Positions 3,937 through 54,783 of a stretch of 64,000 nt of DNA are shown here, in pieces. Source of the DNA: Bacillus sp. EAC (lineage in GTDB: Bacteria; Bacillota; Bacilli; Bacillales; Bacillaceae_G). Each line of letters opens with the position of its first letter. The stretch's first letter is position 1. The position numbers and the translations under genes were made by a program. Where the stretch lies: the NCBI RefSeq assembly GCF_002156875.1, contig NZ_NCSY01000014.1, forward strand, positions 124,001 to 188,000. The letters are read 5' to 3'. The notes beneath the pieces were generated by a model, which did not search any database, was not told the DNA's origin, and saw only the letters and a program-made list of their open reading frames with translations.

Positions 3937-5388
3937 GTGGATAGTTCAGAAGGAACGAGAAGTAGAATGAAGAGATATAATTTGCGTTCATCTGTTATTC
4001 ATACAGAGGGAAGTATTGAAGAAAATGTCACCATTATGAAAAAAGTATTCCCTACCTCTGACTTAAAAATAAAAAATTTGAATATCAACGAAAAACCTGC
4101 TCTATTCATTTATCTATCTGCTTTAGTAGATGAGCAAAAAATCGATCAGATCGTAAATAATTTCATTACGAATAAAGATGAACTCGAACTCTTTATTAGT
4201 AATCATACTGAACAAACTAATCTGATTAGTGAAATTGAAAAGTCAGTATTAGATGGAAAGAGTATTTTATTTATGGATGGTAATCCATCAGCTTATATAT
4301 TTTCGACTGAAAAATGGCCCCAAAGACCATTTATGCCACCTACGATCGATAACTCTTTAAAAGGATCGAAAATAGCATTTGTTGATACTTATCAAGCGAA
4401 TATTGCATTACTTAGAAGATTTATTCATAGCCGTAATTTTCAAACGAAGCAAACTGAAATTGGAACTGATAACAAAAGCTTGGTCACGACAGTATATATC
4501 GAGGGTTTAGTAGATGAAGATTTATTATCGGATGTAGAACAAGCTATTTCAAAAATTAAAGTTGATTCAATTATAAATTCAAATCAATTAATGCAAATAT
4601 TGGAGAGGAATCCGTTTTCTCCATTTCCACAATTTCTTACAACGGAACGTCCAGATGCAGCTGCGGCAGAATTACTGAAAGGAAGAATTGTACTGATTTT
4701 AGATCGATCTTCTGATGTAATCATATTGCCTGTTGACTTTACAACTTTTTTTAAGAGTGTAGATGATTATTCCGCAAGATCAATCGTCGCATCATTTAAT
4801 CGAATCCTTAGGCTTTTAGCATTCGTCATTACACTCTTTCTACCGGGGTTTTATATCGCAATTATTTCGTTCAATTATGAAATCGTTCCTTTAAAATTAC
4901 TCTTATCAATCGGTGAGTCTCGTGCACAAGTACCATTTGATCCGCTAGTTGAAGCAATCTTAATGGAAATTACATTGGAAATGTTAAGGGAAGCAGGGAT
5001 AAGATTACCTTCACCTATTAGTACGACAGTAGGAGTCGTTGGTGGGATTGTAATCGGTCAAGCTGCGGTTCAAGCAGGGATTGTAAGTAATATCATGATA
5101 ATAGTAGTAGCACTAACAGCTATTTCCTCTTTTATTATTCCAAATTATGAAATGGCATCAAGTTTACGAGTAGTTAGGTTTCCAATTATGATCATGGCTT
5201 CACTATTTGGATTAATTGGTTTAATAGTTAGCACAATGGTTTTAATGATTCATAGTCTGACATTAAGTAGCTTTAAAACTTCTTATACAAAGCCTTTTTC
5301 TCCTATAAATATTGAATTGTTTAAGGATACAATTATTCGAATACCTTTAAACTTTCTTTGGAAAAAGCAAGATAATAATAATGAATAA
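3937..5388 (+). CDS. Spore germination receptor subunit A (GerA family)
   Basis: This 483-residue protein is of usual size for the A subunit of nutrient germinant receptors in the inner spore membrane. The N-terminal half is soluble and made of two alpha/beta subdomains. The C-terminal half has hydrophobic segments with the family motif PFDPLVEAILMEITLEMLREAGIRLP (given here only as the segment beginning at about residue 332) and IPNYEMASSLRVVRFP. The usual R-G-P-R-x-x-F-T-E motif before the second soluble subdomain is replaced by LKGSKIAFVDT, so the subunit is divergent. Start is GTG, after GAAGGTGGG. It is first in a gerA-gerB-gerC operon, with gerB 24 bp downstream. Confidence 0.92.
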   Translation: MDSSEGTRSRMKRYNLRSSVIHTEGSIEENVTIMKKVFPTSDLKIKNLNINEKPALFIYLSALVDEQKIDQIVNNFITNKDELELFISNHTEQTNLISEIEKSVLDGKSILFMDGNPSAYIFSTEKWPQRPFMPPTIDNSLKGSKIAFVDTYQANIALLRRFIHSRNFQTKQTEIGTDNKSLVTTVYIEGLVDEDLLSDVEQAISKIKVDSIINSNQLMQILERNPFSPFPQFLTTERPDAAAAELLKGRIVLILDRSSDVIILPVDFTTFFKSVDDYSARSIVASFNRILRLLAFVITLFLPGFYIAIISFNYEIVPLKLLLSIGESRAQVPFDPLVEAILMEITLEMLREAGIRLPSPISTTVGVVGGIVIGQAAVQAGIVSNIMIIVVALTAISSFIIPNYEMASSLRVVRFPIMIMASLFGLIGLIVSTMVLMIHSLTLSSFKTSYTKPFSPINIELFKDTIIRIPLNFLWKKQDNNNE

Positions 5389-5412
5389 TAGAATGTTGGA
5401 AGGGATTCATAC

Positions 5413-6510
5413 ATGGATGTAAAGAAATCAAAGATTACACACTATCAATTCATCCTAATGATTTATGGTATACAAGTTGGGGTCGGCATGTTGTCTCTTC
5501 CAAGAGAATTAGCTGCAAAATCTGGGACAAGTAGTTGGATATCCATTATTTTCGGAGGATTAATTTCAACATTAATCAGTATCTTTTACATTAAATTAAG
5601 AGAAAAATCACCCAATACAAACTTCCTATCTTTTTTTACTTTTTATTTAGGGAAATTTCTTGGATCAATCGTTCTATTACTTCTTTCTATTTATTTTATT
5701 TTTGCAGGGTATGTTGTGTTAATTAGGGCGATATTATATATCCAATCTTATATACTTCAAGAAACAAGTGAATATGTATTAGTCATTTTATTCTTAGTGC
5801 CTACTTATCAATTAATAACTGGTGGTGTGCATATACTCGCTAAATATGTTGAGGCCATTTTCCCACTCGCTATATTTGGACAAATCATGCTACTGTTTAC
5901 ACTAAAAGATACAGATATTAATTTTATTTTACCGATTATAAAAGACGGCTGGTTGCCTATTTTTAAAACAATTCCCACAACAGCGACTTCATTTTTGGGG
6001 GTTGAATTAATACTCATTTATTATCCATATTTAAAAACAAAGGAAAAGGCAATAAAAGGTGTAGTTATAGCGAATGCGATGACTACAATTACCTATGTAT
6101 TTGTTACGATTATCTGTTTTGTTATTTATAGTCCTTATGAAATAAGCAAAATTTTTGAACCTGTTATCGATATCTTAAGTGTGATTGAATTTCAATACGT
6201 GGAAAGATTGGATTTTATTTTATTTTCATTGTTTTTAATGATTATATCTAAAACATGGGTGACTTATATTTGGGCAGGAATGACAGGAGTAGCAGAATTA
6301 TTTAAAATAAAACGTTTTACATTATTCGTTTTAATCCTTTGTATATTATTTATTATTAGTACGTTTTTATTCATACCTACATTCACAAATACGACTCAAG
6401 AATTACATATTATTACAGTCGGTGGACTGATAATTTTGATTGGTGTACCTATTCTTTTATGGATTGGTGGCAAAGTGAAAAATAGTTTAAATAAGGTGAA
6501 AATAAATTGA
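5413..6510 (+). CDS. Spore germination receptor subunit B (GerB family permease)
   Basis: This 365-residue integral membrane protein has about ten hydrophobic segments and belongs to the amino acid-polyamine-organocation superfamily. The N-terminal QVGVGMLSLPRELA is the characteristic GerB segment that replaces the transporter substrate loop. B subunits bind nutrient germinants and pass the signal in the GerA-B-C complex. An AGGGATT sequence stands before the ATG. The last bases overlap the start of the C subunit gene by 4 bp, which indicates translational coupling. Confidence 0.92.
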   Translation: MDVKKSKITHYQFILMIYGIQVGVGMLSLPRELAAKSGTSSWISIIFGGLISTLISIFYIKLREKSPNTNFLSFFTFYLGKFLGSIVLLLLSIYFIFAGYVVLIRAILYIQSYILQETSEYVLVILFLVPTYQLITGGVHILAKYVEAIFPLAIFGQIMLLFTLKDTDINFILPIIKDGWLPIFKTIPTTATSFLGVELILIYYPYLKTKEKAIKGVVIANAMTTITYVFVTIICFVIYSPYEISKIFEPVIDILSVIEFQYVERLDFILFSLFLMIISKTWVTYIWAGMTGVAELFKIKRFTLFVLILCILFIISTFLFIPTFTNTTQELHIITVGGLIILIGVPILLWIGGKVKNSLNKVKIN

Positions 6511-7625
6511 AAGTATTTCAAGTATGTTTTCTAACTGTTTTATTAATCATTGGTGTTTATGGATGCAAAGGGAAAGTGAATATTGAAGATGTCACTTTGT
6601 CACTCATATTAGGGATAGACGTAAATGAGAAAAATGAAGTTGAAGTGTATATGTCAAGCCCAGTATTCAGTCCGGATGCAAAAGAAAAAAATGAACAATT
6701 TCAAATAAAAACTTTATCACTTAAAGAAGCAAGAAATTATTTTGATTCAATGGCGAGTGGAATTACAGCAGGTGGAAAAATTCAAGCAGTTTTAATCGGT
6801 AAAAAAGCTATCGAGCATAAAAATTGGTTTTCTATAATGGACATGTTATACCGAGACCCAAAAGTACGATTAAATGCAGATGTTGTATTTGTGAACGGAC
6901 CTTTGAAGGACATTTATGATTTGAAACTTGAAGATAAACCTAGATTATCTATTTTTATTCCTCAATTGTTACAAACTGCTGATTTTAGAAATGTTGCATT
7001 TAGAACATCATTGCGAAAGTTACATCTTTATGAATATGAGAGAGGAATTACACCATTTGCCCCTGAATTAACTTTAGACAAAGGTATTCTAAAGGTGACT
7101 GGAACTACATTATTGGATAGACAAGACTTGTATAGTCGAACATTAACATTACAAGAAACGCAATTGTTAAAAATAATAACAGATCATCTCGAAGGGCAAT
7201 TATCTGTAACAATCCCATTGAAAAAATATAAAAAGGATGAGGACGTATTCATTAATGACATTACAAGTTTTTATGTGAAGGAAATTAAAAGGAAAGTGAT
7301 AAAGAAATATTCGGATGGTCGATATGAATTTACAGTTAATCTTAAAATGCCAATTATGATTACAGAATCACCTATTAGATTAGAGGATAACTCAGGAGAC
7401 GAGTTTAAAAATGCGATTCAGAAGGAATTAGAAAAACAGTTAAATGAGTTTGTTACTTCATTACAGAAAGAAAAATTAGATCCTGTCGGTTTTGGTATTT
7501 TTGCGCATTCGTTTAAGTATTCTGAATGGGAAAAAGTAGAGGATAATTGGCTTAAGGAATATCAGCAAGCCAAAATTAAAGTAAATGTAGAAATTATTCT
7601 ACAAGATAAAGGAATTACTTCATAG
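6507..7625 (+). CDS. Spore germination receptor subunit C lipoprotein (Ger(x)C family)
   Basis: This 372-residue protein starts with a lipoprotein signal, and the lipobox GVYGC puts the lipid-modified Cys at residue 20. Downstream motifs typical of the family include LILGIDVNEKNEVEVYM and the ASGITAGGKIQAVLIGK segment. C subunits sit on the outer face of the inner spore membrane and complete the receptor. The start is TTG inside the gerB stop region, with AAGGTGA about 10 bp upstream. The operon ends at a terminator 20 bp downstream. Confidence 0.92.
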   Translation: MKVFQVCFLTVLLIIGVYGCKGKVNIEDVTLSLILGIDVNEKNEVEVYMSSPVFSPDAKEKNEQFQIKTLSLKEARNYFDSMASGITAGGKIQAVLIGKKAIEHKNWFSIMDMLYRDPKVRLNADVVFVNGPLKDIYDLKLEDKPRLSIFIPQLLQTADFRNVAFRTSLRKLHLYEYERGITPFAPELTLDKGILKVTGTTLLDRQDLYSRTLTLQETQLLKIITDHLEGQLSVTIPLKKYKKDEDVFINDITSFYVKEIKRKVIKKYSDGRYEFTVNLKMPIMITESPIRLEDNSGDEFKNAIQKELEKQLNEFVTSLQKEKLDPVGFGIFAHSFKYSEWEKVEDNWLKEYQQAKIKVNVEIILQDKGITS

Positions 7626-7645
7626 TAGATTATTTGGAAAAAGAA

Positions 7646-7675
7646 AAACCACCAATAGAATGGTGGTTTATTTTT
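7646..7675. terminator. Bidirectional terminator between ger operon and MFS gene
   Basis: AAACCACC at 7646-7653 pairs with GGTGGTTT at 7662-7669. There is a T-rich run on the right for the ger operon, and an A-rich run on the left that gives a U tail for the convergent MFS gene. Confidence 0.85.
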
Positions 7676-8858
7676 ATGCTGCTTTCTTTTCATAGATAGC
7701 AACTGATTTTTGTTTACGGTCATGTAACATGTAATAGAAAACAGTTGTTAATAAAACTACAATAGCTGAAATAACGTACATTGAATGGAAAGTCGTTTTT
7801 GCAGAAACGATTCCTAAAATATAAGAACCTAATCCCATGCCGATATCAAAAAACATAAAGAATGTTGCAGTTGCCATGCCTCTTTTTACTGGAGCAGCGT
7901 TATTAATAGCCAATGTTTGGAAGCTTGGGACAATTGATCCATAACCTAATCCAACTAATACAGCGGATAATAAGAAGATTGATGGGATCGTTGAGAAGCT
8001 TAATACCAAAAGGCCAATAGCAAAAAGTACGATTCCTGGATAAACAATTGTATTTGCGCCTCTACGATCGAAGAGTTTTCCTGTAAATGGTCTGGATGCT
8101 AAAATAGCGATAGCATAAATGATAAAGAAAAAACTAGCGACTTCCACAAAGCCTAATTCTTTTGCGTATAAAGTAATAAATGAAATGACACCACTGTAAC
8201 CGAAAGCAATCATTGATGCTGTAATTGAAACAGGCAATGCCGAACGTTCAATTAATTGAGACGCTTTTATACGAGTTTTTTCTGTAATTACCTGTTTAGG
8301 AATTGCAATATTCATAGCAAAAATAAATGCGATAACTGCAAAAATTCCACAAACTAAAAACAAACTTGTAAAGCTAAATTTATTCATCATTGTAATTCCA
8401 AGATAAGGACCAAAAACCATCGCAAGGATCATTGATGAACCATAGTAACTCATGCCTTCGCCTCGGCGTTTAGCTGGCACGATTTCTGCAACAATCGTGC
8501 CGGTAGCTGTTGTTCCTAAACCAAAGACAATTCCTTGTGCAAATCGTAAAATAAGTAAAAGTGCAAAATTTTGTACAAATGGATATAAGAAAGTCGTTAC
8601 TGTAAAGAAAATTAATGAAAATATTAATATTTTTCTTCGCCCAATTGTATCTAACCAAATACCCGCAAACGGTCTAATTAGTACAGATGCGATAAGAAAA
8701 GCAGTAATCACTAAGCCTACACTACTTTCCTTTTGACCTAAATTATCGATGACAAAGATTGGAAGTGTAGCCATTAAAGTATAAAATACTAAAAATACAA
8801 AAAAACCACTCAAGCTAACACTGATAAAATCCTTTGTCCATAAACGTTCATTTTCCAA
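7674..8858 (-). CDS. MFS transporter
   Basis: This 394-residue protein has twelve predicted hydrophobic segments. It contains the MFS loop motifs RPFAGIWLDTIGRRKIL after segment 2 and SRPFTGKLFDRRGANTI in the second half, the two-fold repeat typical of 12-TM drug/H+ antiporter-like carriers. The substrate cannot be read from sequence. Start is TTG after AGGAGG. The gene lies 3 bp after the MarR-family gene, so export of a compound sensed by that regulator is the simplest reading. Confidence 0.85.
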   Translation of the reverse strand: MENERLWTKDFISVSLSGFFVFLVFYTLMATLPIFVIDNLGQKESSVGLVITAFLIASVLIRPFAGIWLDTIGRRKILIFSLIFFTVTTFLYPFVQNFALLLILRFAQGIVFGLGTTATGTIVAEIVPAKRRGEGMSYYGSSMILAMVFGPYLGITMMNKFSFTSLFLVCGIFAVIAFIFAMNIAIPKQVITEKTRIKASQLIERSALPVSITASMIAFGYSGVISFITLYAKELGFVEVASFFFIIYAIAILASRPFTGKLFDRRGANTIVYPGIVLFAIGLLVLSFSTIPSIFLLSAVLVGLGYGSIVPSFQTLAINNAAPVKRGMATATFFMFFDIGMGLGSYILGIVSAKTTFHSMYVISAIVVLLTTVFYYMLHDRKQKSVAIYEKKAA

Positions 8859-8861
8859 ATT

Positions 8862-9305
8862 TTATTCCTCCTGTTGTACTACCTCGGAAGCTTTCATATT
8901 GTTCATCATTTTAAGAAAAACTTGCTGAGCAATATCAAGTTCTTCTTCAGATATATTTTTTATGACTTCATTCTCAAATTTCATAATTCTTTGCTGCCAT
9001 TCTTCTTTTTGACATAATGCCTTTTCAGTAAGATGAATTACTTTTTCTCTCTTGTCAGAACCTTCTTTACGAATGATCAGTTCCAGACTTTCCATTCTAC
9101 ATAATGTTTTTGTTAATGTGGGCGGCTCAATGTTTAAATTCATGCAAATCGTTCGTTGGGTACACGGACCATGTTCACTGATATAACGAATAACGGACCA
9201 TTGTGCTAAATATAATCCGGTCGGCACAAGGTTCTCATTAAATGATTTCGAAAACTGTCGTGTAACTTGATTTAATGAAAAAAAGAAAGGCTGTCTATTA
9301 CGCAT
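8862..9305 (-). CDS. MarR family transcriptional regulator
   Basis: This is a winged-helix protein of about 147 residues. The helix-turn-helix is TQRTICMNLNIEPPTLTKTL, followed by the wing with the conserved D-K-R (EGSDKREKVIHL). I place the start at the ATG at 9305 because TAGGAG stands eight bases before it; a TTG six codons earlier lies inside that ribosome binding site. It is the first gene of a two-gene unit with the MFS transporter. A dyad directly upstream suggests autorepression, with relief by a ligand of the transporter. Confidence 0.88.
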   Translation of the reverse strand: MRNRQPFFFSLNQVTRQFSKSFNENLVPTGLYLAQWSVIRYISEHGPCTQRTICMNLNIEPPTLTKTLCRMESLELIIRKEGSDKREKVIHLTEKALCQKEEWQQRIMKFENEVIKNISEEELDIAQQVFLKMMNNMKASEVVQQEE

Positions 9306-9325
9306 ATTTAATCTCCTAAACAAAA

Positions 9326-9364
9326 TAGTTAGTTAGCTAATTAAATTAGTTGACTAGCTAATTA
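9326..9364. promoter_or_regulatory. Candidate MarR operator
   Basis: AGTTAGCTAATT at 9331-9342 and AATTAGTTGACT at 9344-9355 form an imperfect dyad with two mismatches. The flanks repeat TAGCTAATTA. It lies 20-60 bp upstream of the MarR start codon, where autoregulatory MarR operators usually lie. Confidence 0.6.
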
Positions 9365-9488
9365 TATTTGATTTTAATAGAAATGTCTATGGAAAGAATT
9401 ATAGTGAAAAAGTATAAATACGTATAAAAATAGACTTTGTGTAGATATTAAATTAAGTAAAAATCAATTAGACAGGGCGGAACGATTG

Positions 9489-45986: not shown

Positions 45987-48900
45987 ATGGGAAGTAGCAT
46001 ACAAAAAAATAAGTTTGTAAAAAGCATGACTGTTTTAGCGCTATCAACTAGTTTTATTTTAGCCTCATTTGGAAATGTAACGAATGTATCGAAAGCCGTG
46101 AGTTTGACGAATGTTGATGACATGCTTACTAAGTTAACGCCAATGCAAAGGGCTGCTTTAAATCAACTAACAGCAAAGGCTACGACGGGTCTTCAAATTT
46201 CTCATGATATTGATTTAAAGTCTACTGAACAAACGAATGTAATTGTTGAGTTTACAAATAAGCCAGCAAAAGTGGCTAAAATTGAAGCAAGTGTAGAAGG
46301 AAAGCAGCTTACTGAGGCCGAAGCTTCAGGGTTAGTGGATCAGGATCATAAAACGTTTCAAGCTGAAGTGGGCCAAGTATTAACTGATGAAAAAAAGTCA
46401 AAAGTAAGTTTCAAGATAAATCGATCATATAAAACTGCCTTTAATGGTGTATCAATGAATCTACCTGCAAATCAAATTGAAAATCTATTAAAATCAAAAG
46501 TAGTAAAAAATGTTTGGAGTAATGAACAATTCAAGATTGATCCTCCAGACCAAAAAGAAATTACTGACCAATTTAAAGCTGATGAATTTAACATTGCGAA
46601 TTATTCACCTTACGATGGATTAGACCGTATTCACGAAGAAGGTTTAACAGGGAAAGGAATTAAAATAGGTATTCTGGACACAGGGATTGATTATAATCAT
46701 CCAGATTTAAAGGATGCTTATAAAGGAGGATACGATTTCGTCGATAATGATAGCGATCCAATGGAAACGACTTTTGCAGATTGGAAAAAATCAGGCCAAC
46801 CAGAAATTATTAATTCGAATACATATTATACCGAGCATGGAACACATGTAGCTGGAATCATCGGCGGCCGAGGAGTTGCTGACAGTGAGTATAAAACGAT
46901 TGGCGCAGCACCTGAAGCAGATCTTTATTCTTACCGAGTACTCGGACCATATGGAAGTGGTACGAGTGATGACATCATTGCAGCGATTGATCAAGCGGTG
47001 AAGGATGGAATGGACGTCATTAATATGTCATTAGGTGCTACGATCAATAACCCACTTTTTGTCACATCTGTAGCCGTTAATAATGCGGTATTAAGTGGAG
47101 TGACAACTGTTGTAGCTGCGGGGAATAGTGGAGATCAGATGTATACACTTGGTTCGCCAGGAGCAGCGGCATTAGCATTAACGGTTGGTGCATCATCTAG
47201 TGCGATTGATGTGTACGAATATACAGGTAAACAAAATAGTAATGATTATAGATTAAGAGAATTAGCTAGAAACTATTCTGATGATTTAACTAAATTACAA
47301 GGTAAAACATTTAATCTAGTTGAAGTCGGACTTGGGTATCCAGTTGATTACAATGGAAAAGATGTAAATGGAAAGATTGCCCTTGTAAAGCGGGGGGAAA
47401 CTGCATTTGTTGATAAAATCAAAGCCGCGAAGAATAAGGGTGCAGCAGGAATTATCATTTATAATAATGAAGAGAACAAAGCAGAAGGAAACATTCAAAC
47501 GTATGTAGGTGAATCAATATTTGCAATTCCAACTTTCTCTATTTCATATGAAGATGGACTAGCAATTTCAGAGACAATTAAAGCCGGTAAAACAGATTTC
47601 TCATTTGGTGATTTTACAAAAATAAAAACACCTGAAGATGAATTAGCTAGTTTCAGTTCAAGAGGACCATCTCGTATAAATTATGATATCAAGCCTGAAA
47701 TAACTGGGCCAGGTGTTGCCATACTTTCAACTGTCCCATTTTATATAAATGATAAAACAGTAGATGGCACAAAACCTGGGGATTATAAAATTGCATACGA
47801 ACGATTATCTGGTACATCTATGGCTAGCCCTTTTGTTGCAGGCGTATCCGCACTATTACTTCAATCAAATAAAGATTTACAGCCAGCAGATATAAAATCT
47901 ATTTTGATGAATACAGCAGATCCATTATCTAAAGAATACAGTGTATTTGAAGTAGGAAGCGGACGAGTTGATGCGTATGAAGCAATTCACTCAAATGTTG
48001 AATTAAGTGTCGTAGATAAAACGCGTACTCTTATTAATGGAAAGGAAAAATTAATTAATGAGTTAACGGGTGCAATGAGCTTCGGATCACTAAGCTTTAA
48101 TGACAAAAATCAATTAGCATCACGAAATATTACACTTAAAAATCGAAGTGAAAAGGCGAAAACCTTTAACATTAATGTTCACTATCAAACTGGATTAAAA
48201 GGATCAAAAGATGCATCTAAAAATAATGTGACATTAACTTCTCCAACAACTGTAAAATTAAATGGAATTAGCCAAAAATCAATTCAATTTAATTTGGATA
48301 TCCCGAAAACTGCTGAAAAAGGAATTTATGAAGGCTATATCGTTTTTACAAATAGTGTGGATTCTACAGAACAATATCAAATCCCATTTGGTGTTCACTA
48401 TGTAGAAGAAGGATTTAACTCAATGAAAGCACTAAATAAAATGATGACTTCTGATTATACGAATTGGTATCCTTTATTAGATTACGACACTACCGTACTG
48501 TTTAATTCTAGATCAAATATGGAAACACTGGATTTCGTTTTGTTAGATGGTGAAACCAATCAAGAGATTGGGTATTTAGGACAAATGGACGCTTCTCAAC
48601 TTAATGATGATACTGATTATTATGTAAATGGAGTATTTACCGGAATGTATTTACCATTTACTGGAGACACAAAACAACCGATATCAACTAAAGCGGTAAA
48701 AGTACCGTATGGACCAGCCCATTATAAAGTGAAAATGATTGGAACAAATAAACAAGGGAAAACATTCGGGGTGATTGACCATACAATGATTGATATTACA
48801 GGTCCAACATTGACGACAGATTTAAATGATGGCTTTATTGAAATTAAGCCTGGTACGACATCTTATCCGATTTCAGGGAAAGTTTTTGATAAAACAAATG

Positions 48901-50114
48901 ATGACTATAGAAAGCAAGGAATTGCGATTGATCAATCAAGCAATTTTATAATGGAAAAAAATAATCATTATTTATATACGAATGGATTCTATGTTGATAC
49001 GGAAGGAAACTTTTCGTATGATATCCCGATTGATCCGACTGCAAGTAGCGTAAATGTAGAATTACAAGGGTACAATACAGCTGGAATTGGAACAAGATAT
49101 AAAAACTTTACATTTGTTCCAGAAGGCACACCATATGTATATGGAAGTACTGAAAATGATTATGTGAATTTAGGTGAGAACGTAAAAGTTACTTTAACAG
49201 CTAATAATCTTACAGATGCGAGAAAACTAGCTACTAGTTTCTCATTTTCAAATAGTCAATTAGAAGTGATTGATGTAAAAGTACATCCTACGATCGAAAA
49301 AATTGGACACGCAAAGCTTACAACTGAAACAGTTCCATCTGGTTCAAGTACAGAATTAAATGTAAAGATGGAATTTACAGAAGGAAAAGTATCAGGTGAT
49401 GTTCCATTTGCTGAAGTAACACTTAAAGTGAAAGACGATCTTTATGAAATAATGTATCCTTTCGAGGAATCATCCGCTTCTTATGCAAATGAATCAAACG
49501 AAACATTCTCAATGGTCTCTGCAATTGTCCCAATTTGGACGAAACCATTAAAATCAGCAACTTCGGGTTCACTTGGAATACCAGAATCATTCGTAAGAGA
49601 AGGTAGAAATACTTGGAGAGTCGACCCATCTCAAATAGGAGCAGTTTTATCTGTGAAAGATAAAGAAGGTAATAATTATCCTGGTGTACTCAATCGATAT
49701 GGACAACTTAGCGTTGAAAAATTACCTATTACACTTGAAGAGTTGGTCGAATCAATCGATCTTCCAGGGCATTTCACGATTTATAAACCATTTCATGTAG
49801 GGTTTGTGAATGATGAAGGGAAAGCTACTGCACACCATAATCCAGAAATCAATTTAATCGCTCCAGTTCCAGGAGATGTTAATAAAGATAATGTGATCGA
49901 TATAAAGGATGCAATTTTCATCCAAACATACTGGGGTACGAATAAACGTAGTGCAGATATAAATTTTGATGGTAACGTCGATGCAAAAGACTTTGCGTTT
50001 TTTGAGAAGAATTATTTAATGCAGAATCCGACTGTGGCTGATGCTCCTAAGCCTGTTAAGAAATATAAAGGTAAGGCAATTGAGGATATAAAAACTGAGT
50101 TAGGAATAAATTAA
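45987..50114 (+). CDS. Secreted Vpr-like S8 subtilase with C-terminal dockerin domain
   Basis: This 1375-residue exported protease has a signal peptide (about 1-38) and an inhibitor-I9 propeptide (about residues 75-190, with VEFTNKPAKVAKIEASVEGK and NGVSMNLPANQIENLL). The catalytic domain has Asp 231 (GILDTGIDYNHPD), His 284 (EHGTHVAGIIGG) and Ser 611 (LSGTSMASPFVAG), with a PA-type insertion around residues 450-520. Several beta-sandwich/Fn3-like modules follow. The C-terminus is a type I dockerin: PGDVNKDNVIDIKDAIFIQT and ADINFDGNVDAKDFAFFEKN, each with a calcium loop. A dockerin without visible scaffoldin suggests calcium-dependent self- or cell-surface association. Two stand-alone I9-like genes follow downstream. 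Confidence 0.93.
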   Translation: MGSSIQKNKFVKSMTVLALSTSFILASFGNVTNVSKAVSLTNVDDMLTKLTPMQRAALNQLTAKATTGLQISHDIDLKSTEQTNVIVEFTNKPAKVAKIEASVEGKQLTEAEASGLVDQDHKTFQAEVGQVLTDEKKSKVSFKINRSYKTAFNGVSMNLPANQIENLLKSKVVKNVWSNEQFKIDPPDQKEITDQFKADEFNIANYSPYDGLDRIHEEGLTGKGIKIGILDTGIDYNHPDLKDAYKGGYDFVDNDSDPMETTFADWKKSGQPEIINSNTYYTEHGTHVAGIIGGRGVADSEYKTIGAAPEADLYSYRVLGPYGSGTSDDIIAAIDQAVKDGMDVINMSLGATINNPLFVTSVAVNNAVLSGVTTVVAAGNSGDQMYTLGSPGAAALALTVGASSSAIDVYEYTGKQNSNDYRLRELARNYSDDLTKLQGKTFNLVEVGLGYPVDYNGKDVNGKIALVKRGETAFVDKIKAAKNKGAAGIIIYNNEENKAEGNIQTYVGESIFAIPTFSISYEDGLAISETIKAGKTDFSFGDFTKIKTPEDELASFSSRGPSRINYDIKPEITGPGVAILSTVPFYINDKTVDGTKPGDYKIAYERLSGTSMASPFVAGVSALLLQSNKDLQPADIKSILMNTADPLSKEYSVFEVGSGRVDAYEAIHSNVELSVVDKTRTLINGKEKLINELTGAMSFGSLSFNDKNQLASRNITLKNRSEKAKTFNINVHYQTGLKGSKDASKNNVTLTSPTTVKLNGISQKSIQFNLDIPKTAEKGIYEGYIVFTNSVDSTEQYQIPFGVHYVEEGFNSMKALNKMMTSDYTNWYPLLDYDTTVLFNSRSNMETLDFVLLDGETNQEIGYLGQMDASQLNDDTDYYVNGVFTGMYLPFTGDTKQPISTKAVKVPYGPAHYKVKMIGTNKQGKTFGVIDHTMIDITGPTLTTDLNDGFIEIKPGTTSYPISGKVFDKTNDDYRKQGIAIDQSSNFIMEKNNHYLYTNGFYVDTEGNFSYDIPIDPTASSVNVELQGYNTAGIGTRYKNFTFVPEGTPYVYGSTENDYVNLGENVKVTLTANNLTDARKLATSFSFSNSQLEVIDVKVHPTIEKIGHAKLTTETVPSGSSTELNVKMEFTEGKVSGDVPFAEVTLKVKDDLYEIMYPFEESSASYANESNETFSMVSAIVPIWTKPLKSATSGSLGIPESFVREGRNTWRVDPSQIGAVLSVKDKEGNNYPGVLNRYGQLSVEKLPITLEELVESIDLPGHFTIYKPFHVGFVNDEGKATAHHNPEINLIAPVPGDVNKDNVIDIKDAIFIQTYWGTNKRSADINFDGNVDAKDFAFFEKNYLMQNPTVADAPKPVKKYKGKAIEDIKTELGIN

Positions 50115-50222
50115 CATATAGTTAAGGGATTTCTAATAATATTAATTTAATTCAGTAGATCATTTGCAGACATTTTTTATTTGGGCTATAATAACTTAAA
50201 CCATTTTCTTTACTAGATATAT

Positions 50223-50260
50223 CCCTTATTCGTTCTATTGAATAAGGGTTTTTTATTTTT
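50223..50260 (+). terminator. Terminator of the subtilase gene
   Basis: CCCTTATTC at 50223-50231 pairs with GAATAAGGG at 50240-50248, followed by a long T-run. Confidence 0.9.
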
Positions 50261-50263
50261 TTA

Positions 50264-50299
50264 GAAAAAAAAAAGACAAATTCGATAAGAATTTGTCTT
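50264..50299 (-). terminator. Terminator of the cold-shock gene
   Basis: AAGACAAATTC at 50273-50283 pairs with GAATTTGTCTT at 50289-50299; the A-run from 50264 gives the minus-strand U tail. Confidence 0.9.
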
Positions 50300-50312
50300 T
50301 GTGTATGTTATA

Positions 50313-50513
50313 TTATGCTTTTTTAACGTTTGTAGCTTGTGCACCACGTTGTCCTTGTTCTACTTCAAATGTAACTGCTTGACCTTCATCTAAAGATTTG
50401 AAACCTTCACTTTGAATTGCTGAGAAGTGAACGAATACATCATCTCCATTTTCGCGTTCGATGAATCCAAAACCTTTTTCTGCATTAAACCATTTTACTT
50501 TACCATGTTCCAT
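50313..50513 (-). CDS. Cold-shock protein (CspA/CspD family)
   Basis: This 66-residue OB-fold RNA chaperone carries RNP1 (EKGFGFIE) and RNP2 (DVFVHFSAI). The C-terminal [13 protein letters not shown] is typical of Bacillus Csp proteins. The ATG at 50513 has AAGGAGG upstream; ten further codons exist in frame but lie across that site. It sits between the subtilase gene and the I9-like genes, on the other strand. Confidence 0.95.
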
Positions 50514-50704
50514 TAAAAAATCCTCCTTGTGTGGGTTGCACACATTGTAATTTAATTATAATAACAATAAAGTTAAAAATAATCAAATAGACCAAAATTG
50601 TTTAGTTCAAAAGATTTTACTTAACTTCTTTAAAGGGTAGTTTATATTAATAGAAATAGACAGAATTCTAAAGAGAGAGTTTAGGATTAAATGGATTGAG
50701 AATG

Positions 50705-50748
50705 AAAAGACAATCTAAGGGAGACAATCCTGATAGATTGTCTTTTTT
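50705..50748 (+). promoter_or_regulatory. Leader hairpin before the first I9-like gene, with alternative pairings
   Basis: AAAAGACAATCT at 50705-50716 can pair with AGATTGTCTTTT at about 50735-50746, giving a terminator-like stem and T-run. A second copy of GACAATC at about 50723-50729 can pair with the same GATTGTC through a six-base loop. No + strand gene precedes it before the divergent cold-shock gene, so it belongs to the leader of the I9-like gene. An almost identical leader precedes the next gene. Confidence 0.55.
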
Positions 50749-50790
50749 CATTAAAACATGAATACAGTTTTTAAAGGAGTGGTAGTTAAT

Positions 50791-51297
50791 ATGAAGAAGT
50801 TTACTAGTGGGGCCATTTTTATGGTGACAATCCTTTCAATCTTGAGAGGATGTAGTGAGAATACATTTAATAGAAATAAGATAATGAGTCAGGTAGAGGA
50901 GGCGAAAGAAACGATGGGTACTTCAGTATTTGTAGATCCTAGCATTGATCAATCTAGTAATAAGACTGTATCGATTATCATTGAATTTAAAACTAAGCCA
51001 GCGAAAATCGCAGTAATTGAAGCAGAAGCGCAGGGGAAACAATTAAGTTTGGATGAGGCTAAGCAAAAAGTAGAGGAAAGTCATGAGCAATTCCAAAAAG
51101 AACTACAAACTTTACTAGCTCAAAATCAAGTACCATTTACCGTAAAGCATGTTTATAAGACAGCTTTGAATGGGGTTTCGATGGAATTGCCTGGGAATGA
51201 AGTGAAGCGATTGATGCAGTCAAGTGTGATCGGAAGAATTACTTTAAATAAGGAAATACATCTTGATCCACCGATTCAGCCGTTTAAGCAGATGTAA
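50791..51297 (+). CDS. Stand-alone I9 propeptide-like exported protein 1
   Basis: This protein of about 168 residues starts with a signal ending SILRGCSENT, an imperfect lipobox with a possible lipidated Cys 21. The rest aligns with the I9 propeptide of the upstream subtilase: SIIIEFKTKPAKIAVIEAEA, GKQLSLDEAKQKVEESHEQF and KTALNGVSMELPGNEVKRLM, ending IHLDPPIQPFKQM just where a propeptide would end. No protease domain follows. It may be a dedicated inhibitor or folding helper for subtilases. ATG 50791 lies about 11 bases after AAAGGAG; an ATG 11 codons earlier lacks a site. Confidence 0.75.
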   Translation: MKKFTSGAIFMVTILSILRGCSENTFNRNKIMSQVEEAKETMGTSVFVDPSIDQSSNKTVSIIIEFKTKPAKIAVIEAEAQGKQLSLDEAKQKVEESHEQFQKELQTLLAQNQVPFTVKHVYKTALNGVSMELPGNEVKRLMQSSVIGRITLNKEIHLDPPIQPFKQM

Positions 51298-51355
51298 CAT
51301 GTTAGAGTAATAGTTACTTTTAGTAGTGAGATGAGTTTTCAGTGAATTAAGAATG

Positions 51356-51398
51356 AAAAGACAATCGAAGGGACACAATCCTGATAGGTTGTTTTTTT
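51356..51398 (+). promoter_or_regulatory. Duplicated leader hairpin before the second I9-like gene
   Basis: AAAAGACAATCGAAGGGACA at 51356-51375 and ACAATCCTGATAGGTTG followed by seven T residues repeat the leader at 50705-50748 with few changes. The stem is weaker here. It may terminate the previous gene, but its equal position before both genes suggests it was duplicated as part of the gene unit. Confidence 0.55.
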
Positions 51399-51415
51399 AT
51401 TTTAGAGGAGTAGAT

Positions 51416-51928
51416 ATGAATATGATGAGATTATATAAAGGTACCATACTAGTTGTAGCAATTCTTTCAAGTATATTTAAATGGAATGAAAATACACTTA
51501 ATAAGAATCAATTTATAAATGAGGGAAAGGTGGTAAAAGAAACGATGAGTGCTTCTTTTTATGTAGACCCTACCATTGATTTTTCAAGTGAAAAAATCAT
51601 TTCAATTATCATTGAATTTAAAATAAAACCTGCTAAAATTGCTGTTCAAGATGCTGAGGCTGAAGGAAAACAATTAACGTTAGAAGAAGCAACTAAAAAT
51701 GTTGAGGAAAGTCATGAGATGTTTCAAAAAGAACTAAAAACTTTACTCGATGATCACCAAGTTCCTTATACGATAAGACGTACATATAAGACGGTCCTCA
51801 ACGGTGTTTCGATGGAGTTACCAGCAAAGGAAATCAAAAGATTACAGCAGTCTACAGTGATAGAGAAAATCTATCCAAATAGAAAAGTTCACCTTTTTCC
51901 ATCTATTACACCATTTAATCAAATGTAA
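51416..51928 (+). CDS. Stand-alone I9 propeptide-like exported protein 2
   Basis: This 170-residue paralogue of the preceding protein has a hydrophobic N-terminus (LYKGTILVVAILSSIFKWNE), and the Cys of protein 1 is replaced by Trp, so it is anchored or secreted, not lipidated. It then has SIIIEFKIKPAKIAVQDAEA, GKQLTLEEATKNVEESHEMF, KTVLNGVSMELPAKEIKRLQ and the end VHLFPSITPFNQM. ATG 51416 has AGAGGAG five bases upstream. The tandem arrangement and shared leader show a duplication after separation from a protease gene. Confidence 0.75.
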   Translation: MNMMRLYKGTILVVAILSSIFKWNENTLNKNQFINEGKVVKETMSASFYVDPTIDFSSEKIISIIIEFKIKPAKIAVQDAEAEGKQLTLEEATKNVEESHEMFQKELKTLLDDHQVPYTIRRTYKTVLNGVSMELPAKEIKRLQQSTVIEKIYPNRKVHLFPSITPFNQM

Positions 51929-51957: not shown

Positions 51958-51988
51958 CAGATTGATTTCATAGATCAATCTGCTTTTT
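51958..51988 (+). terminator. Terminator of the second I9-like gene
   Basis: CAGATTGAT at 51958-51966 pairs with ATCAATCTG at 51974-51982, followed by CTTTTTCTG. Confidence 0.85.
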
Positions 51989-53457: not shown

Positions 53458-54783
53458 ATGTTGGAATTTGATACGAATATAGAACAATTAGCAAAGATAA
53501 AGGTCATCGGAGTTGGCGGTGGCGGTAACAATGCCGTGAACCGTATGATTGAGGATGGAGTTGAAGGGGTAGAATTTATTGCCTTTAATACAGATGCACA
53601 AGCTCTTAAGCAATCAAAAGCTAGCATCACGATGCAAATCGGTGCAACTTTGACAAGAGGTTTAGGTGCGGGTGCAAATCCGGAGATAGGAAAAAAAGCT
53701 GTAGAAGAAAGTAAACAGCAGATTGAAGAAATAATTGCAGGCGCGGACATGGTATTCGTAACAGCCGGAATGGGCGGTGGGACAGGCACAGGAGCAGCGC
53801 CTTCTATTGCTAAGATTGCCCGAAATCTTGGAGCACTAACAATTGGGGTTGTCACACGACCATTCAAATTTGAAGGTAAAAAGCGTGCAGTCAACGCGGA
53901 AATGGGTATTAAAGCACTTAGGGATGCAGTTGATACTTTAATTATCATTCCAAACGATCGATTATTGGAGCTTGTCGATAAAAAGACACCTATGCTTGAA
54001 GCCTTCCGTGAAGCGGATAATGTACTTCGCCAAGGGGTTCAAGGGATTTCCGATTTAATTGCTGTACCTGGTTTAATCAATCTAGATTTTGCTGACGTCA
54101 AAACAGTCATGTCCCATAAAGGAACGGCTTTAATGGGAATCGGTATTGCTAAAGGTGATGGACGAGCTGTTGAGGCTGCGAAGAAAGCATTAAATAGCCC
54201 ATTATTAGAAACTTCGATTAATGGAGCTCACGGTGTAATCATGAACATAACTGGTGGACACAATTTAAGTCTATTTGAGGTACAAGAAGCAGCCGATATT
54301 GTTGCATCTGCGTCTCACGAGGAATTAAATATGATATTTGGTTCAGTCATAGATGAAAGCTTAAAAGACGAAATTATCGTAACAGTCATTGCGACTGGAT
54401 TCACTGAGCAAAATGAGACAGTGGTAAAAACGTCTCCTCAGCCTGCAATGGAAGAAGTGACTAATCGATATATGACCAATCGTTATCAAAGGGAAGAACG
54501 TCATCAATATGAACCAGTAAATCGTAACGAACAGGTTCAAGAATATGACCGATACCAATATGAACCGAGAAACCGTAATGAACAGGTTCAACAAGATTAT
54601 GATCGATATCAAAATGACCCAAGAAGCCGAGGCGAACAGGTTCAGGAATATGATCGATACCAATATGAGCCAAGGAATCGTGAAGAACATGTTCAGGTTC
54701 AAGATCTAGACAATTATTCGAAACAACAAGAAGATTCTTTGTATATTCCAGCGTTTTTACGTAAGAGGAAGAATCGATTTTGA
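53458..54783 (+). CDS. ftsZ: FtsZ cell-division GTPase, paralogue with repeat-built C-terminal linker
   Basis: This 441-residue tubulin-like GTPase has a GTP-binding core that is complete: [18 protein letters not shown], the tubulin signature [19 protein letters not shown], and the synergy loop with [15 protein letters not shown]. The C-terminal peptide [15 protein letters not shown] matches the FtsA/SepF-binding tail of Bacillus FtsZ. Between them the linker consists of four tandem copies of a 17-18-residue unit ([17 protein letters not shown]). The neighbours are an SGNH hydrolase and a secreted protein; ftsA and other dcw genes are absent, so it is likely a second ftsZ. GAGGAGG precedes the ATG. 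Confidence 0.92.
54505..54702 (+). repeat. In-frame tandem repeats in the FtsZ linker
   Basis: Units start at 54505, 54556, 54610 and 54661, with lengths 51, 54 and 51 bp and a last partial copy of about 42 bp. Each begins CAATATGA or CAAAATGA and contains GAACAGGTTCA or GAACATGTTCA. High nucleotide identity suggests recent expansion by slippage or unequal exchange. Confidence 0.85.

Follow-up and report, generated by a model that had tools for sequence, protein, structure and literature searches.

Stand-alone I9 proteins associated with Vpr-like subtilases in Bacillus sp. EAC and its relatives: candidate inhibitors of the producer's own proteases

Organisation of the locus

A 64,000-nucleotide stretch of the genome of the soil bacterium Bacillus sp. 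EAC (contig NZ_NCSY01000014.1, positions 124,001 to 188,000; hereafter the window) encodes a large exported subtilase and, downstream of it on the same strand, two small genes, here called orphans 1 and 2, each of which codes for a signal-like N-terminal stretch followed by a single I9 domain, the domain of subtilase propeptides (Table 1). In the subtilase, Pfam profiles recognised the S8 catalytic domain (E-value 9e-59), the PA insert (4.1e-18), a Dockerin_1 domain (3e-09) and Inhibitor_I9 (3.2e-09), and the closest solved structure is that of Vpr (8jmw, E-value 2.4e-104). The combination of I9, S8 and PA domains and the sequence similarity to Vpr identify the enzyme as a Vpr-like S8 protease. 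Mature Vpr begins at residue 158 according to an excerpt of PMC10657474, and an ungapped reading of the alignment would place the corresponding cut in the window protease between N202 and I203. Ahead of the dockerin, residues ~1040–1180 appear cohesin-like by eye, while no Pfam match to cohesin was obtained in the C-terminal part of the protein; if this region were a cohesin, self-assembly with the dockerin would be possible.

Both orphans match PF05922 above the curated cut-off of 21.2 bits, with 31.9 bits (2.1e-7) for orphan 1 and 40.9 bits (3.4e-10) for orphan 2. The genome as a whole contains 21 I9 matches; 19 fall within frames of 1182–2926 amino acids, and the two window orphans are the only stand-alone ones. 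These results confirm the gene content proposed in the initial annotation, namely a 1375-residue dockerin-bearing protease with an I9 propeptide, followed by two genes coding for little besides I9. The alignment of the three domains also holds, with 40% identity between orphan 1 and the protease propeptide across 123 aligned positions (E-value 2e-31) and 58% between the two orphans; the nearest solved relative of the orphans by profile is the I9 domain of Vpr in 8jmw (1.5e-6). Ribosome-binding sites precede position 50791 (AAAGGAG) and positions 51416/51422 (GAGGAG), so that the proteins would comprise ~168–170 amino acids and the first-listed ATG codons are unlikely starts; that of orphan 2 (51353) falls within a hairpin.

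A cold-shock-protein-like gene on the opposite strand and a terminator-like hairpin (50223–50248) lie between the protease and orphan 1, which makes a single operon of the three genes unlikely. A scan for a promoter of the orphans' own returned 6 sites, against 10.5 in shuffled sequences, and no such promoter is proposed.

Table 1. Features of the window, and regulatory genes at related loci (locus number before the coordinates)
Feature	Position	Strand	Basis
Vpr-like exported subtilase, 1375 aa (I9, S8, PA, fn3_5, dockerin)	45987..50114	+	Pfam; nearest solved relative 8jmw
I9 propeptide domain of subtilase (residues 86-184)	46242..46538	+	Pfam, structure model
S8 catalytic domain with PA insert (residues 222-659)	46650..47963	+	Pfam
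Type I dockerin domain (residues 1295-1339)	49869..50003	+	Pfam
Cold-shock-protein-like gene between protease and orphans	50313..50513	-	ORF (open reading frame); named by eye from sequence; start taken at MEHGKVKW
Leader hairpin of orphan 1, terminator-like, with U run	50697..50750	+	Folding, covariance model
Orphan I9 protein 1, 168 aa, damaged lipobox (LRGC)	50791..51297	+	PF05922; start from ribosome-binding site
Conserved C-terminal tail of orphan 1 (PPIQPFKQM)	51268..51294	+	Alignment
Leader hairpin of orphan 2	51348..51401	+	Folding, covariance model
Orphan I9 protein 2, 168 aa; Trp replaces lipid Cys	51422..51928 (start 51416 possible)	+	PF05922
C-terminal tail of orphan 2 (PSITPFNQM)	51899..51925	+	Alignment
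Terminator-like hairpin 3' of orphan 2	51958..51982	+	Consensus match
Helix-turn-helix (HTH) and tetratricopeptide repeat (TPR) regulators	L018 22-951; L020 10800-12011; L021 10826-12127; L024 8588-9838		Pfam, ORF clusters

The orphan I9 family and its association with Vpr-like subtilases

A scan of named genomes revealed 18 orphan loci in organisms labelled Gottfriedia, Bacillus, Neobacillus, Rossellomorea, Cytobacillus, Peribacillus and Sporosarcina globispora. In the window's genus the orphan is present in 12 of 13 genomes, with one copy in 11 of them and two in that of the window; a 204-residue I9 frame of G011 is part of the split protease of locus L012. In samples of the order and of the class, where scoring stopped at nine candidates per genome and the counts are therefore lower bounds, orphans were found in at least 16 of 397 genomes (E-value ≤1e-44; the match in G017 contains two stop codons) and at least one of 398 (E-value ≤1e-40; the window's genome only), respectively. 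The family is thus narrow in distribution. It was probably inherited vertically. A plasmid-borne family was considered and rejected, the single plasmid record matched being hit at an S8 family serine peptidase. That record (CP053689.1) is labelled Arthrobacter citreus, and since the match has the same coordinates (191257-191688) as one in G012:C2 of the window's genus, its species label is probably wrong.

In the I9 tree (125 columns, unrooted, with the divergent propeptides L098, L038 and L050 excluded beforehand) 21 orphans form one clade apart from 42 propeptides (support 100/99; 100% of 200 bootstrap trees). The orphans are therefore not copies of the adjacent propeptide, as the initial annotation had it. 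With frames of their own (~168 amino acids) and a clade of their own, they belong with propeptide-like proteins encoded by separate genes. Nor are the window copies recent tandem duplicates, since orphan 2 joins other Gottfriedia orphans (100/98) and orphan 1 stands unplaced near the base of the clade. Ratios of non-synonymous to synonymous substitution (dN/dS) of 0.06–0.30 in the 14 orphan pairs computed indicate purifying selection and rule out the interpretation of the orphans as relics.

A lipobox with its cysteine is found in most members. Among 25 N-termini (the 21 sequences of alignment A1, L100–L102 and L035), patterns resembling PS51257 and G+LPP fit 18 and 17, respectively; L100–L102 fail the first through a tyrosine at position -4, and the other failures are the two window copies, L014 and L022. 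The LRGC of orphan 1 fails both patterns, orphan 2 has tryptophan at the place of the lipid cysteine, as does the G. solisilvae protein, and the Peribacillus copy has no signal part. Because neither window copy retains an intact lipobox, their tethering to the membrane is uncertain; they are probably exported, and may be either signal-anchored or released. The earlier suggestion of exported proteins, one with a possible lipid cysteine, thus agrees with the signal-like N-termini and with the lipobox of the family, and fails for an intact anchor in the window itself.

The structure model of orphan 1, in which 103 of 169 residues have a predicted local distance difference test score of at least 90, reproduces the order of elements in the protease's own I9 domain, and its fold is that of subtilase prodomains: the eight highest structural matches are all such prodomains or pro-forms. 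The C-terminal strand, on the absence of which the idea of an inhibitor might have foundered, is predicted at residues 148–153 of the free protein and is followed by the conserved tail, whose end is disordered. This tail has a near-constant length and the form PP-x2-P-x2-Q-x; in A1, which has 37 invariant columns and is numbered one ahead of the 168-residue protein, P161 and P165 are invariant and P162 and Q168 are conserved in at least 90% of the sequences. The 42 propeptides commonly have PP (90%) and vary beyond it. The orphans stop ~8 residues before the inferred cleavage position of the protease, and so do not end where a propeptide would be cut, as had been proposed. The tail may occupy the active site, where its prolines could slow cleavage; in other subtilases, excerpts of the literature describe a tail bound in the manner of a product (PMC10580911) and also cases in which it is dispensable (PMC10580911, PMC6993865).

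Vpr-like proteases were identified in 52 of the 397 genomes of the order (E-value ≤1e-90), some of the frames being only ~770–810 amino acids long and the dockerin having been checked in the window and L024 only. They are present in all 16 orphan genomes and in 36 of the 381 others (Fisher test, 8e-16, kinship ignored); counted by genus, the figures are 4/4 and 10/131 (8e-5). The sole member of the window's genus without an orphan, G004, has no such protease at this threshold and two at E-value ≤1e-60. At the latter threshold, Vpr-like proteases with I9 and S8 domains are greatly expanded in the genus, with 2 to 59 matches per genome (59 in G012).

At 25 distinct orphan loci (18 from named genomes, six further ones and the window; L103 duplicates L022), protease sequence occurs within 5 kb of the orphan in 15 cases, always on the same strand, 10 of these proteases being intact and five split or relic. 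No protease lies within 5 kb at the remaining 10 loci, although L018 offers only 2.9 kb upstream and L009 only 2.9 kb downstream. At a 26th locus (G003), assessed by coordinates alone, a protease is nearby. One of the split proteases, at L012, consists of an I9 part that ends a few residues past SIDPP (5344-5922) and a remainder (5855-9463); this arrangement resembles the possible birth of an orphan, unless it represents a pseudogene or an assembly error. Proteases were counted in 17 orphan genomes, among them G003; in nine of these a protease lies no more than 5 kb from the orphan, where chance would give at most 0.93 (3e-8, kinship ignored); at the genus level the proportion is 2/4, with a rough probability of 0.009. 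The co-occurrence anticipated by the initial annotation is therefore recurrent, and the orphans are not placed at random relative to subtilases.

The linked proteases of different genera do not constitute one orthologous group. One clade of the protease tree comprises four linked proteases of Gottfriedia, including that of the window (100/99), and a second those of L020, L021, L100 and L101, one of them labelled Rossellomorea (100/99), while those of Cytobacillus L024 and of L016 fall elsewhere. The orphan is still under purifying selection where the neighbour has been lost (L009 and L026; scraps alone are left in L010). The link with subtilases is thus real but loose, which does not support a pair dedicated to the window protease. 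Since the neighbours are not orthologous and the orphans persist after their loss, the likely target is the protease family rather than one partner.

The co-occurrence data also fit the main rival of inhibition, a foldase acting in trans, in which an I9 domain held at the membrane would template the folding of subtilases emerging from the Sec channel, much as intermolecular propeptide chaperones do. A site outside the membrane would suit this role, and PrsA-type lipoprotein foldases, which have an unrelated fold, are likewise membrane-held and act on exported proteins. However, with 19 of the 21 I9 matches in long frames the proteases bring their own I9 domain, so that help in trans looks redundant; templating would have no obvious need of a conserved proline-containing tail, and 36 of the 52 protease genomes manage without an orphan. 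We therefore regard a foldase as rather unlikely.

Leader hairpins and neighbouring genes

Most orphans are preceded by a conserved hairpin with a U run, which ends ~15–40 nucleotides 5' of the start codon. Folding z-scores of four examples range from -3.2 to -5.7. Pairing is retained in 96.1% of the alignment cells, against 49.5–70.7% when the structure is slid along the alignment and 94.5% in shuffled alignments, 6 of 500 of which were as high. Covariation is weak, its score being reached by 3 of 500 shuffles, and the single pair found to have changed on both sides is not above chance (146/500 shuffles). A covariance model was derived from 16 sequences, many of which come from the same orphan loci and one of which (L111) lies behind a protease; this model detected the hairpin in 14 of 18 genomes. 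Its matches precede 12 of 13 Gottfriedia orphans, the exception being that of G. solisilvae, and all three in genus g30. Of five weaker matches, four stand directly behind the stop codon of a protease (L127–L130) and the fifth (L131) looks like chance. A scan of 199 genomes from the order gave six matches at E-value ≤1e-4, all of them orphan leaders; the best 150 candidates per genome were scored in the first scan and the best 28 in the second, so that further copies are possible. By eye, the hairpin is missing or unrecognisable at the Cytobacillus, S. globispora, Peribacillus and G. solisilvae loci. No Rfam family was matched at its gathering threshold, permissive matches being far below the family cut-offs, and a general protease terminator is disfavoured, as inspection by eye of 25 listed protease frames did not find the hairpin at their 3' ends.

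The leader can be read as the terminator of a protease, retained when the orphan arose 3' of that protease in a tandem array. If so, the proximity of the genes could be no more than a trace of origin by truncation, and the present target of the orphans another exported protease. The resemblance of the leader to the terminator behind one protease clade, the change of neighbours from genus to genus and the purifying selection at L009 and L026 fit such a history. It bears on proximity and target and not on the inhibitor fold; the low dN/dS argues for function, and every orphan genome of the sample has proteases of the Vpr-like kind. As an account of the present association it appears improbable.

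Clusters of flanking ORFs were compared at 19 loci. An AraC-type protein of 488–495 amino acids is encoded downstream of the orphan at seven of them, which all belong to a single Gottfriedia-like group. Four loci encode an HTH+TPR protein no more than 2 kb from the orphan, with TPR in all four and HTH_3 in three. Regulators of the latter type are of the kind that reads Phr-like peptides, which suggests peptide sensing. As Vpr itself processes a quorum-sensing peptide precursor, according to an excerpt of PMC10657474, a regulatory role for the orphans is conceivable on these two grounds together. The I9 domain would then be a sensor or bait: on binding active protease, or on being cleaved by it, the domain would signal proteolysis outside the cell to a regulator encoded nearby, and the conserved hairpin would switch the orphan's own gene. 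Against this, no single regulator is common to all genera and the commonest shared neighbour within 5 kb is the protease (11/19); the covariation of the hairpin is weak, and a near-identical hairpin serves as terminator behind one protease clade. A sensor is possible, and the least probable of the functions considered here. This conserved, foldable sequence may regulate the orphan gene by attenuation.

Further features of the window include a second FtsZ (53458–54783, plus strand), 79% identical over 315 amino acids to the product of the genome's other ftsZ (G000:C1:46866-47810); a 51-nucleotide tandem repeat (54505–54695) lies in the part that encodes the C-terminal tail of this second FtsZ. 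A related FtsZ adjoins the orphan of G. solisilvae too (L014). A Bacillaceae-1 RNA (RF01690) is located at 966–1032 on the minus strand (69.2 bits).

Proposed function and related systems

Inhibition of the producer's own exported subtilases is the most economical mechanism. The domain's profile match and fold, its occurrence in genes of its own, the single clade that these form, the purifying selection, the conserved tail and the lipobox pattern of most relatives, together with the co-occurrence with subtilases and the proximity on the same strand, lead us to favour, with moderate confidence, an I9-type inhibitor family that was ancestrally membrane-tethered and acts on these enzymes. The ancestral orphans would probably have been lipoproteins attached to the outside of the membrane. 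The I9 domain of the orphans would bind the catalytic domain of Vpr-like subtilases made by the same cell, in the way that the propeptides of these enzymes do, with the proline-containing tail in the active-site cleft, and the enzyme would be inhibited close to the membrane of its producer, which might thereby be protected.

More tentatively, the family may constitute an immunity-like system directed against the cell's own secretome, in which lipid-anchored inhibitors derived from propeptides, with a leader hairpin taken from a protease terminator, would shield the envelope of organisms exporting up to ~59 such proteases; the two diverged members in the window would be losing, or have lost, their anchor so as to function at a distance from the membrane. 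A family of this kind, conserved in Vpr-rich bacterial genomes and for the most part equipped with a lipobox, would suggest how Gram-positive producers restrain their own surface proteases, and could be a source of small subtilase inhibitors.

Among the matches listed from the open-access literature, no bacterial stand-alone I9 lipoprotein was recognised, which is weak evidence of novelty. An excerpt of PMC6993865 lists the yeast proteinase B inhibitor, Pleurotus POIA1 and Arabidopsis SPI-1 as stand-alone I9 inhibitors, and its stand-alone propeptide-like inhibitors come from fungi, a plant, Toxoplasma and Plasmodium, with none from bacteria. The yeast, Pleurotus and Arabidopsis proteins are eukaryotic and, according to the same excerpt, without significant sequence similarity (PMC6993865), whereas the orphans belong to bacteria, begin with a signal-like stretch, in most cases carry a lipobox and, in orphan 1, share 40% identity with a host propeptide. 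Plasmodium SUB1-ProM is likewise a stand-alone propeptide-like protein with a signal peptide, and its gene adjoins subtilase genes; its inhibition of SUB1 has been demonstrated and, as far as the excerpt goes, no membrane or lipid anchor is predicted for it (PMC6993865), while the orphans are putative inhibitors. In Bacillus Vpr (8jmw, an 803-residue chain) the I9 domain is part of the enzyme precursor, and the excerpt of PMC10657474 mentions no orphan gene. Thus, the fold of the orphans and, likely, their mode of action are those of known inhibitors, while the organismal setting, the anchor and the leader appear to be new.
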